Positions 1 through 61,615 of a DNA stretch of 64,000 nucleotides are shown piece by piece. The position numbers and the translations under genes are program-made. Under the pieces are notes generated by a model. That model worked only from the letters and a program-made list of their open reading frames with translations. It ran no database searches and was not told the origin of the DNA. Source of the stretch: Actinobacillus arthritidis (GTDB taxonomy: Bacteria > Pseudomonadota > Gammaproteobacteria > Enterobacterales > Pasteurellaceae); NCBI RefSeq assembly GCF_029774155.1, contig NZ_CP103833.1:496001-560000 (forward strand), written 5' to 3'. The first letter of the stretch is position 1, and each line of letters begins with the position of its first letter.

Positions 1-1411
1 AATTATCCGGTGTAGTTATCACTGTACCGGCGTATTTTGATGACGCACAACGTCAAAGCACCAAAGATGCGGCGCGTCTTGCCGGTTTAAATGTATTACG
101 TTTATTAAATGAACCAACGGCGCTAGCGATTGCTTATGGGTTGGATAGCGGACAAGAAGGCGTTATCGCAGTATATGATTTAGGCGGCGGTACTTTCGAT
201 ATTTCGATTTTGCGTTTAAGTCGAGGTGTGTTTGAAGTGTTGGCGACCGGTGGTGATACCGCACTTGGCGGCGATGATTTCGACCATTTGCTAGCCGATT
301 GGATTGCGGAACAGGCAAATTACAAACCGCAGAATGCCAATGAACAACGTGAATTATTAACGCTAGCTACCCAAACTAAAGTGGTGCTTTCACAAGCGGT
401 CGAAACTGAAGTGAAATTTGCAAATTGGCAAGGTACGGTAAGCCGTGCGCAATTTAACGAGTTAATTCAGCCATTAGTTAAACGTTCATTGATGACTTGC
501 CGCCGAGCGTTAAAAGATGCCGGTGTGGAGGTCGAAGAAGTTCGTGAAGTGGTAATGGTTGGCGGTTCAACCCGTGTGCCGTTTGTGCGTGAGCAAGTCG
601 GCGAATTTTTCGAGAAGAATCCGTTAACCTCAATTGATCCGGATAAAGTTGTGGCATTAGGTGCGCGATTCAGGCGGATATCCTAGTGGGTAATAAACCG
701 GATAGCGAAATGTCGCTGTTAGATGTGGTACCGCTTTCACTTGGTATCGAAACGATGGGTGGTTTAGTTGAGAAAATTATTCCGCGTAACACGACGATTC
801 CGGTTGCACGTGCGCAAGAATTTACTACGGCGAAAGACGGTCAAACCGCAATGAGCGTACACGTGTTACAAGGCGAACGTGAGTTAGTCGAAGATTGTCG
901 TTCACTTGGTCGCTTTACGTTACGAGGCATTCCGCCGATGGTTGCCGGTGCGGCGACAATTCGTGTTACTTATCAAGTGGATGCGGATGGTTTGCTCAGT
1001 GTTACGGCAATGGAAAAATCGACCAAAGTACAGGCTTCGATTCAAATTAAGCCGTCTTACGGTTTAACCGATGAAGAAGTCACGCAAATGATTAAATCTT
1101 CAATGACCAATGCCAAAGAAGATATGGAAGCTCGTCAACTTGCTGAACAGCGTGTTGAAGCAGATAGAACGATTGATACGGTAATTTCGGCATTGCAACA
1201 AGACGGTGCGGAAGTATTAAGCGTTGAAGAGTTTAAGTTAATTGAAGCGGAAATCGCAAAACTGATTCAATTAAAACAAGGTACGGATCGACAAGCAATT
1301 GCCCAAGGGGTAAAAGATTTAGATCTCGCAACACAAACATTTGTCGCGAAGCGAATGAATTTATCAATCCAAAAAGCATTAGCGGGTAAAGCCGTTGATG
1401 AAATTATTTAA
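1..1411 (+). pseudogene. hscA: hscA, Fe-S assembly chaperone (5' end outside window; frame broken)
   Basis: HscA is the specialised Hsp70 that, with HscB, releases [2Fe-2S] clusters from IscU. The reading frame enters at base 3 and covers about the last three quarters of the protein. The Hsp70 ATPase signatures are visible: the [10 protein letters not shown] phosphate loop near base 180 and [10 protein letters not shown] near 555. The substrate-binding domain follows, with the conserved NTTIPV and GERE segments. The frame breaks at 663-670, where the expected GAAIQADIL needs GCG GCG ATT and the sequence reads GCGCGATT, one G short. The sequence continues cleanly in the new frame to the stop at 1411. 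Fdx and iscX follow directly, as in the isc operon. A real null allele is unlikely because the rest is well conserved; a sequence error is the simplest reading. Confidence 0.93.
392..400 (+). repeat. Apl-type DNA uptake sequence, representative copy
   Basis: ACAAGCGGT, inside hscA. Other plus-strand copies seen at 11091-11099, 15374-15382, 18219-18227, 30395-30403, 31232-31240 and 48342-48350; complements (ACCGCTTGT) are equally frequent. The word fits the Actinobacillus pleuropneumoniae group and marks natural competence. Confidence 0.85.
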
Positions 1412-1461
1412 TTAGTGCCCTTCTGTGAAAAGAGGGGAAGAGTCAAATAAAAGAGGATATT

Positions 1462-1803
1462 ATGCCAAAAGTTGTTTTTCTTCCGCATGAAGAGTTCTGT
1501 CCGGAAGGTATGGTGATTGAAGCGCAAACCGGCGACAATTTATTAGAGTTAGCGCACAATGCGGGTGTAGAAATTCACCATGCTTGTGACGGTTCTTGTG
1601 CGTGTACGACTTGCCATGTGGTTATTCGTGAAGGGTTTGATTCATTAAATGAAACAACCGATCAAGAAGAAGATATGCTAGATAAAGCATGGGGTCTGGA
1701 AATGGATAGCCGTTTAAGTTGCCAATGTGTAGTTGGCGAAGAAGACTTAGTGGTAGAGATTCCGAAATATAACTTAAATCACGCAAATGAGGCGGCACAC
1801 TAA
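1462..1803 (+). CDS. fdx: ISC-type [2Fe-2S] ferredoxin
   Basis: Adrenodoxin-type ferredoxin of 113 residues that donates electrons during Fe-S cluster assembly on IscU. The cluster ligands fit C-x5-C-x2-C (Cys42, Cys48, Cys51) plus Cys87, the same spacing as E. coli Fdx. A further cysteine at 46 corresponds to the conserved non-ligand Cys of ISC ferredoxins. It has an AGAGGATATT leader with the AGAGG ribosome site in good position. It lies 50 bp after hscA, and its stop overlaps the iscX start by one base (TAATG), which indicates translational coupling. Confidence 0.96.
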
Positions 1804-59004: not shown

Positions 59005-60042
59005 TTATGAATACCAAATGTTCTTTACAAAAGGAATAATAGTTTTAAGGGCTTCGTCAATAGAGATTAATCCCAAATTCATTTGTTGCGTTTTTTCCTT
59101 CGCTTCAGGCGGCATAAAGGCTAAGTGTTTACCTTCTTCATTGATTGGACGCCAACGGCGAGGCAATGCAGATAAACGGCTTGGATAAAAACCGATAGTT
59201 GCGACATTTAATGCACCGGCAATATGCAAAGGTCCGGTTGAACCAGCAATAAATAGATCGGCACAAGCAATCGAACAGGCAAAATCTTGTAAACCGTCAT
59301 TCTTATCATACACAACTGCTTGAGTCGCCGTAATTTGTTCTGCTAATTGATGAGCTTTTTTGCTTTCGCCTTTACCGGCAGTCAGTACAATTTCACAATT
59401 GGTTTCTTTGGCAATACAGTTCAGCATTTTGGCATATTGTTCAATGGATAAACTGGTTGCTGAACCACCGGTGGACGCATGTACAAAAAGCCATTTACAA
59501 GCGGTCGAAATTTGCAGATTTTTTGCTAATTTTGCTTTTTGTTGTGCAATTTGCTCTTCGCTGAATTGTAAGTAAGGTGGCTGAGGTTCAACTGTTGCAA
59601 TATGGTGTTTTTGTAGAAAAGCACGAGCCAAATCGAGATTATATTCGCTTTCCGCTTTTGCCGATTGCGAACGGCGTTGCGTTAAACGTTGGTTATATAG
59701 AAATTGAAAAACTTTAGTCGCCGGAGCAAGGCGGTGTTTAATGCCACTTTTCCAAGTCAATTTCGCATTATACCAATCGGAAACAAAACTGATTACTGCA
59801 TCAAATTCTGAATTTTTAACCGCTTGTAAAACACGCTGAAATTCAGCTTTATCTTTTTTATTCGGGGTGTCGATAATCACGTGATCAATTGAAGGGCATA
59901 GTTCAGCGAGCGGTGCGGTATAGCTCGGCACTAATGCGGTAATTTCTACATTCGGCATAGCTTGTTTTAGCATCGCAAATGCCGGAAAACAAACCATAAA
60001 ATCACCGATTTTGTCATTGCGAATAACGAGAATCTTTTTCAT
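59005..60042 (-). CDS. Glycosyltransferase family 9 (heptosyltransferase type)
   Basis: ADP-heptose:LPS heptosyltransferase-type enzyme of 345 residues with the GT9 start MKKILVIRNDKIGDFMVCFPAF, an N-terminal acceptor lobe and a donor lobe with FIAGSTGPLHIAGALNVATIGFYPS. It probably adds a heptose to the lipooligosaccharide inner core; which linkage is not clear. The ATG at 60042 is preferred over the one at 60051 because of the family start. KdkA elsewhere in the window acts on the same core. Confidence 0.85.
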   Translation of the reverse strand: MKKILVIRNDKIGDFMVCFPAFAMLKQAMPNVEITALVPSYTAPLAELCPSIDHVIIDTPNKKDKAEFQRVLQAVKNSEFDAVISFVSDWYNAKLTWKSGIKHRLAPATKVFQFLYNQRLTQRRSQSAKAESEYNLDLARAFLQKHHIATVEPQPPYLQFSEEQIAQQKAKLAKNLQISTACKWLFVHASTGGSATSLSIEQYAKMLNCIAKETNCEIVLTAGKGESKKAHQLAEQITATQAVVYDKNDGLQDFACSIACADLFIAGSTGPLHIAGALNVATIGFYPSRLSALPRRWRPINEEGKHLAFMPPEAKEKTQQMNLGLISIDEALKTIIPFVKNIWYS

Positions 60043-60284
60043 GTTTACCAACCTTTAAAACAAATTAGGCACTATTTTAGCATTTTCTAAGCAGAATTTT
60101 TGGTAAAAAATTATGGAAATTTAACCGCTTGTTTATCTCTTGTTATAGCATTGTTTAACGCTAAAAAATTTCTGCCGAAATTTTAGATGTAATTTTTATA
60201 GAATTGGACTAGAATAGATGGAATGGCACAAATGCAACCGTTTGCGTCAGTTTTACTTATATTTAAAAATTTATAGGAATTCGT

Positions 60285-61615
60285 ATGTCAGCAACAATTT
60301 TAGAATCTCTCCCGTTAGGTCAAAAAGTAGGTATCGCATTTTCCGGTGGTTTAGATACGTCAGCCGCATTACTTTGGATGCGTAAAAAAGGTGCAGTGCC
60401 TTATGCTTATACTGCAAATTTAGGTCAACCGGATGAAGACGACTATAATGCAATTCCGAGAAAAGCGATGGAATACGGTGCGGAAAATGCTCGCTTAATC
60501 GACTGTCGAGCTCAATTAGCACACGAAGGGATCGCGCGATTCAATGTGGTGCTTTCCATATTTCAACCGGTGGTATTCCATATTTCAATACAACGCCACT
60601 TGGTCGTGCGGTAACCGGTACAATGCTTGTTGCGGCAATGAAAGAAGATGATGTAAATATCTGGGGTGACGGTTCAACTTTTAAAGGTAATGATATTGAG
60701 CGTTTCTACCGTTACGGCTTATTGACCAATCCAAAATTAAAAATCTATAAACCTTGGTTAGATCAACTTTTCATTGATGAGCTTGGCGGTCGTTTTGAAA
60801 TGTCTCAATTCTTAATCGCTAACGGTTTTGACTATAAAATGTCGGTAGAAAAAGCATACTCAACAGACTCAAATATGTTAGGTGCGACTCACGAAGCAAA
60901 AGACTTAGAAGAATTAAGCACTGGTATGAAAATTGTGAAACCGATTATGGGTGTAGCATTCTGGGACGAAAATGTAGAAATTAAACCTGAAACCGTTTCT
61001 GTAACTTTTGAAGAAGGTGTGCCGGTAGCATTAAACGGTAAACGTATCGAAGATGCGGTTGAATTAATTTTAGAAGCAAACCGTATCGGTGGTCGCCACG
61101 GTTTAGGTATGTCGGATCAAATCGAAAACCGTATTATTGAAGCAAAATCTCGCGGTATCTATGAAGCACCAGGGATGGCGTTATTACATATCGCTTATGA
61201 GCGTTTAGTAACCGGTATCCATAACGAAGACACAATCGAACAATATCGTATCAACGGTTTACGTTTAGGTCGCTTATTATACCAAGGTCGTTGGTTCGAT
61301 CCACAAGCGTTAATGTTACGTGAAACAGCACAACGTTGGGTGGCGAAAGCGATTACCGGTACAGTCACTTTAGAATTACGTCGTGGTAATGACTTCACTA
61401 TTTTAAATACTGAATCACCAAACTTAACTTACGAAGCAGAACGTTTAAGTATGGAAAAAGTAGAAGATGCACCGTTCACACCTGCGGATCGTATCGGTCA
61501 ATTAACCATGCGTAACTTAGATATCGTGGATACACGCGGTAAATTAGGCATCTATACTGAGACAGGTTTATTATCTGTTCAAAACAACGTATTACCACAA
61601 CTTGGTCAAAAGTAA
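60285..61615 (+). pseudogene. argG: Argininosuccinate synthase (frame broken)
   Basis: Joins citrulline and aspartate in arginine synthesis. The N-terminal ATP loop [18 protein letters not shown] and the [14 protein letters not shown] part are followed, after a frame shift, by [20 protein letters not shown] and the rest to VLPQLGQK. The lesion is at 60534-60541: [13 protein letters not shown] needs GCG GCG ATT but GCGCGATT is present, one G short, as in hscA and metI. Corrected length about 443. The strong conservation on both sides favours a sequence error. Confidence 0.92.

Follow-up and report, generated by a model that had tools for sequence, protein, structure and literature searches.

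Why should five genes in one 64,000-base stretch of the Actinobacillus arthritidis genome be broken by the same one-base loss? The stretch (the window, bases 496001-560000 of a single-contig genome of 2,266,746 bases, here called G000) carries the lesion in hscA, metI, sanA, fadI and argG. A first-pass annotation had described it as GCGGCG shortened to GCGCG, and had proposed either a systematic sequencing error linked to a base modification or, less probably, a true mutational hotspot. We find that, almost certainly, the repeated losses reflect a systematic misreading of GCAGC/GCTGC (together GCWGC, where W is A or T) in sequencing and not real mutations. To the joint reading, that the deposited consensus contains errors, that GCWGC is modified in the cell and that native long reads misread nearly every such site, we assign a probability of roughly 94%.

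The five lesion words are present in the window sequence as described: GCGCGATT at 663, 9836 and 60534, GCGCGGTT at 13669, and, inside 47478-47485, GCGC on the complementary strand. At hscA (663..670, plus strand; the gene name is that of the first-pass annotation, and the site is spanned by an intact open reading frame (ORF) of 617 amino acids in the congener G002), metI (9836..9843, plus strand; the intact relative belongs to the MetI family NF008049), fadI (47478..47485, minus strand; again named in the first pass) and argG (60534..60541, plus strand; the intact relative falls in the argG family), every aligned relative has one extra base (8/8, 8/8, 6/6 and 3/3 rows, respectively), reading GCNGC with an N that differs between relatives. 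The case for a one-base loss is weakest at sanA (13669..13676, plus strand; first-pass name), which lies in a diverged region: GCTGC is found at or beside the site in G003 and G008, and the other three of the five relatives are too diverged to judge. The gene before metI, by eye metN, has a one-base gain at a GCWGC site (9281..9286, plus strand) that was absent from the original list.

The word that is lost was identified by comparison with eight congeners, G001-G008, which are about 90-96% identical to G000 over their better-aligned stretches. Words were counted in 644 kb of G000, in 140 kb of G003 and in samples of 20-640 kb from each congener, and expected counts were computed from each genome's own shorter words. 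GCWGC was seen 44 times in G000 against about 721 expected, or 6% (GCAGC, 23 against 399; GCTGC, 21 against 322), and 6 times in the window against 54 expected. The congener samples held it at 71-92% of expectation, the lowest being G008 (69/97); the counts were 948 against 1121 in G002 (GCAGC, 472/543; GCTGC, 476/578) and 177 against 213 in G003, with no depletion like that of G000. The loss of GCWGC is thus specific to this strain.

Alignment gave the same word. The comparison with G002 rested on 25 alignments covering 181,674 bases of G000, only matches of at least 800 bases and at least 85% identity being kept, and that with G003 on 108 kb aligned at 93.9% identity. When 5-mers occurring at least 40 times were ranked by asymmetric loss, GCAGC/GCTGC came first: 270 of 280 G002 sites were changed in G000, whereas in the reverse direction 8 of the 18 GCWGC words in the aligned bases of G000 differed in G002. 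GCWGC was unchanged in G000 at only 10/280 sites of G002 and 6/137 sites of G003, as against 133/294 and 71/115 for GCSGC (GCGGC or GCCGC) and 59/101 and 30/40 for the control word CGWCG. The errors therefore concentrate in one short motif, GCWGC, and neither GCGGCG as the lost word nor GCGGCGRYT as the surrounding motif, both suggested in the first pass, is upheld by the relatives. That intact GCGGCG words occur elsewhere in the window, as had been pointed out, follows from the same result, because GCSGC is kept far more often than GCWGC.

The fates of the 280 G002 sites, written on the GCAGC strand, show that the lesion first noticed is a minor product of a wider pattern. The commonest outcomes were GCGAC (57), GCGGC (50), GCCGC (20), GCAAC (17) and ACAGC (12), followed by unchanged sites (10), GCGC (10), GTAGC (8), GTCGC (8), GCAAGC (4) and others. 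Thus, the most frequent product has two bases swapped, AG becoming GA (57 cases against G002, 37 against G003), and the one-base loss accounts for 10/280; the five losses exist, but insertions accompany them and substitutions outnumber them.

The swap was found at 52 of 239 coding GCWGC places, all of them amino-acid-changing, mostly from Ala to Val or Thr. As a control, the same swap in CAG[AT] was found at 2/828 coding places; in a broader control, [ACT]AG[ACT] with GCWGC sites included, it was found at 30/5438 amino-acid-changing and 6/220 synonymous places. Since amino-acid-changing events, if real, would be purged, their presence at 52/239 places indicates that the swap is not real evolution. 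Conversely, the change of GCGC to GCAC/GTGC, an internal control, was found at 152/309 synonymous but 2/407 non-synonymous places, so that genuine evolution leaves quite another pattern in this genome. Substitutions inside GCWGC comprised 152 non-synonymous, 1 stop and 203 synonymous changes, compared with 3300, 61 and 11830 elsewhere. Artefact can be told from biology in this way without reads: the frequency of a motif-specific change at non-synonymous places is compared with that of a genuine, synonymous change in the genome concerned.

Frameshifts lead to the same conclusion. These were defined as gaps not divisible by three, lying inside a G002 ORF of at least 120 codons and at least 45 bases from its ends, with 85% local identity and other gaps more than 60 bases away. 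Of 40 such isolated coding events, 20 fell at GCWGC, 9 at GCSGC, 1 at a homopolymer, 1 at GCGC and 9 elsewhere; at least two of those scored as GCSGC against G002 read GCWGC in G003. As the neighbourhood of GCWGC takes up about 1% of coding positions, the clustering is not due to chance (binomial P about 1e-29); the first-pass annotation had judged the same of its five identical hits. With gene names taken from NCBIfam matches of the G002 proteins, the genes hit at GCWGC include infB, lysS, accD, guaA, the transketolase gene, argG and metI; nusA, parC and mukB are frameshifted at sites that are GCSGC in G002, and mukB once more elsewhere. The genes infB, parC and accD, which are indispensable in related bacteria, are present in one copy each in the whole of G000, in pieces, the other matches listed being at most 45% identical. 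Because a cell lacking infB, parC and accD would not exist, the breaks belong to the deposited sequence. A mutational hotspot would have left indispensable genes intact and would have had its amino-acid-changing events purged; we found split genes and the unpurged swap, and the idea of a hotspot is abandoned. Both the swap and the frameshifts arise independently of their effect on coding. The suggestion of a systematic error is borne out by this indifference of the main products to coding, by the motif and strain specificity and by the broken essential genes; its link to a modified base is what we infer. In another region, two overlapping ORFs (L195:20-1161) look by eye like one split dnaJ, probably a further error of this type.

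Several observations weigh against this reading or narrow it. Some single changes at GCWGC are constrained: GCAAC/GTTGC arose at 11/62 synonymous and 5/177 non-synonymous places, GTAGC/GCTAC at 5/26 and 3/213, and the middle W changed to S by transition at 44/166 and 5/73 and by transversion at 20/166 and 0/73. These are probably in part real, ordinary divergence. Moreover, the change of GCSGC to GCGAC/GTCGC ignores constraint (30/261 non-synonymous, 1/16 synonymous places); we read the changed places as sites that are truly GCWGC in this strain, though GCSGC itself might be affected to a weaker degree. Finally, 11 of the 40 coding frameshifts lay at neither GCWGC nor GCSGC, and of 59 such insertions or deletions (indels) relative to G003, coding and non-coding pooled at 90% local identity, only 13 lay at GCNGC (12 GCWGC, 1 GCSGC), with 17 at homopolymers and 29 at other places.

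The constrained changes, both the mostly synonymous shifts from W to S and the single inner transitions, together with a real avoidance of GCGC in G000 and G003, are what would be expected if the lineage had evolved to avoid GCWGC or had lost it by deamination of a methylated C. We regard this as very improbable, as neither the swap nor the frameshifts respect coding constraint and as G003, so close a relative, has no such depletion. Less probable still is a true hotspot of restriction scars, in which cutting at GC^NGC would leave one-base ends, trimming would yield GCGC, fill-in would yield GCNNGC, and joining would fix the scar. Both predicted products were seen (GCGC at 10/280 and GCAAGC at 4/280 sites), and the genome has a restriction-modification pair, the methyltransferase of which lacks a close relative in the eight congeners. 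Such scars do not predict the most frequent product, the AG/GA swap, however, nor would the amino-acid-changing swaps have escaped purging or single-copy infB, parC and accD have been split; on the swap and the broken indispensable genes, we reject them. A generally poor long-read assembly with unspecific indels has next to no probability: G000 is less complete (96%) than seven of the eight congeners and more contaminated (4.3%) than all eight, and 17 of the 59 indels against G003 lie at homopolymers, but just one of the 40 isolated coding frameshifts against G002 does, and GCAGC is singled out among 5-mers. A 4-kb piece of the window had no match in a plasmid collection.

Other words are scarce as well. 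GCGC is depleted in G000 (465 against 1505 expected) and in G003 (69 against 286); its sharing by both genomes suggests past or present GCGC restriction or loss of a methylated C. Unlike that of GCWGC, the loss of GCGC in G000 looks real and synonymous and not like misreading. GGCC and CGCG are much rarer than expected in the samples of G000, G002, G004 and G005, and their scarcity in all four of these congeners points to an older, common avoidance.

Returning to misread GCWGC sites, we consider their modification in the living cell the simplest cause, because the errors belong to this strain and follow a single word. The mark would most likely be 5-methylcytosine on the inner C, since the reading of CT as TC on the GCTGC strand points to an alteration there. 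A platform that sequences native DNA in long reads, most likely Oxford Nanopore used without short-read polishing, would then misread the modified site, most often as AG to GA (GCTGC to GTCGC on the opposite strand) and less frequently by losing the middle base (GCGC) or by gaining one (GCAAGC).

Two C5 methyltransferase genes were found in G000, at 12677 and 133465. The second, outside the window at 133465-134406 of the genome, is intact and encodes an HhaI-like protein of 314 residues, preceded by a gene for a 428-amino-acid protein with a PADLOC match to a type II restriction enzyme and, by eye, a GIY-YIG-like start. The two form the putative restriction-modification pair (L120:214-2445, at about 132178-134409 of the G000 contig). 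In the eight congeners the best full-length match to the methyltransferase is 33% identical, with short stretches reaching 45%, and three of the eight have no match; among the 120 best matches listed, named relatives 73-83% identical come from Psittacicella, Ursidibacter, Acinetobacter, Gilliamella, Proteus, Moraxella and Wohlfahrtiimonas. Its class and distribution are those required, and we lean, by a small degree, toward this enzyme as the best candidate for the GCWGC modifier. Its target is the difficulty: the best match among solved structures in the PDB is M.HhaI (E 1.4e-58 over residues 4-312), which recognizes GCGC.

The other C5 methyltransferase (12677-13674) is itself split in the assembly, by eye at a GCGC word. 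It lies in an HphI-like modification locus (L143:12677-15831, the same coordinates in the G000 contig), where the ORFs that follow it resemble, by eye, an adenine methyltransferase and an enzyme of the HNH type. One source gives the name hphIA to two relatives of the C5 methyltransferase (68% and 67% identical). HphI recognizes GGTGA, and this word is not strongly depleted in G000 (GGTGA, 625/728; TCACC, 456/536, seen/expected), so that the enzyme was set aside as the modifier. Its best matches in the congeners searched are 27-38% identical; distribution alone cannot decide between the two methyltransferases, because both are without a close relative there. An enzyme of the N4-methylcytosine type was likewise discarded: PF01555 gave one match below the cut-off, at a locus that by eye holds dnaJ and a ribosomal-protein methyltransferase gene. 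PF02384 had four matches in G000 (two at 928 kb, one each at 1635 and 2261 kb).

For users of the record, the broken genes should not be taken as pseudogenes, auxotrophies or signs of a hotspot. In the collection of genomes compared, this one represents its species. Extrapolation from G003 (177 sites per 140 kb) suggests that it could contain some 2,900 true GCWGC sites, the majority being misread, and the misread sites bring false amino-acid changes as well as frameshifts into the record. The chances seem evenly poised that the assembly is also a readable record of the methylome, in which the HhaI-like C5 methyltransferase marks GCWGC and its target is legible from consensus errors alone; if so, unassigned methyltransferase specificities could be mined from existing genomes sequenced only with long reads, and raw data would not be needed.

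The top-ranked literature matches held no report of such errors in this organism. Assemblies of the rare taxa Actinobacillus genomospecies 1 and 2 and A. arthritidis were obtained from native R9.4.1 nanopore reads with canu and medaka (PMC10074821), a kind of source from which G000 might plausibly have come. Methylation of GCWGC is described in Bacillus amyloliquefaciens and of GCGC in Haemophilus parahaemolyticus (PMC8565308), and Streptococcus iniae has a GCNGC methyltransferase (PMC9176272), in a report whose subject, in the portion available, is not sequencing errors. The C5 methyltransferase M.BatI methylates GCWGC fully and GCSGC by half (PMC8936443); the word that it methylates fully is the one misread in G000, although M.BatI belongs to another organism and another context than our candidate. 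Single-nucleotide and indel errors linked to 5-methylcytosine are reported in Neisseria (PMC12506013). The closest parallel is Listeria monocytogenes sequence type (ST) 87, where nanopore consensus errors occur at GCAGC and GCTGG in native data, persist through polishing with long reads only, and at GCAGC vanish after whole-genome amplification (PMC10687267). As in G000, they affect the same pentanucleotide and are strain-specific. Those errors were exposed by hybrid short-read assemblies and amplified DNA, whereas the present case was read from the assembly alone. They are also mostly mismatches with few indels, which counts against our reading, as one-base losses and gains make up a good part of the errors in G000 and break reading frames. 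Thus, what was found is an artefact, known in kind and somewhat unusual in the spectrum of its errors.

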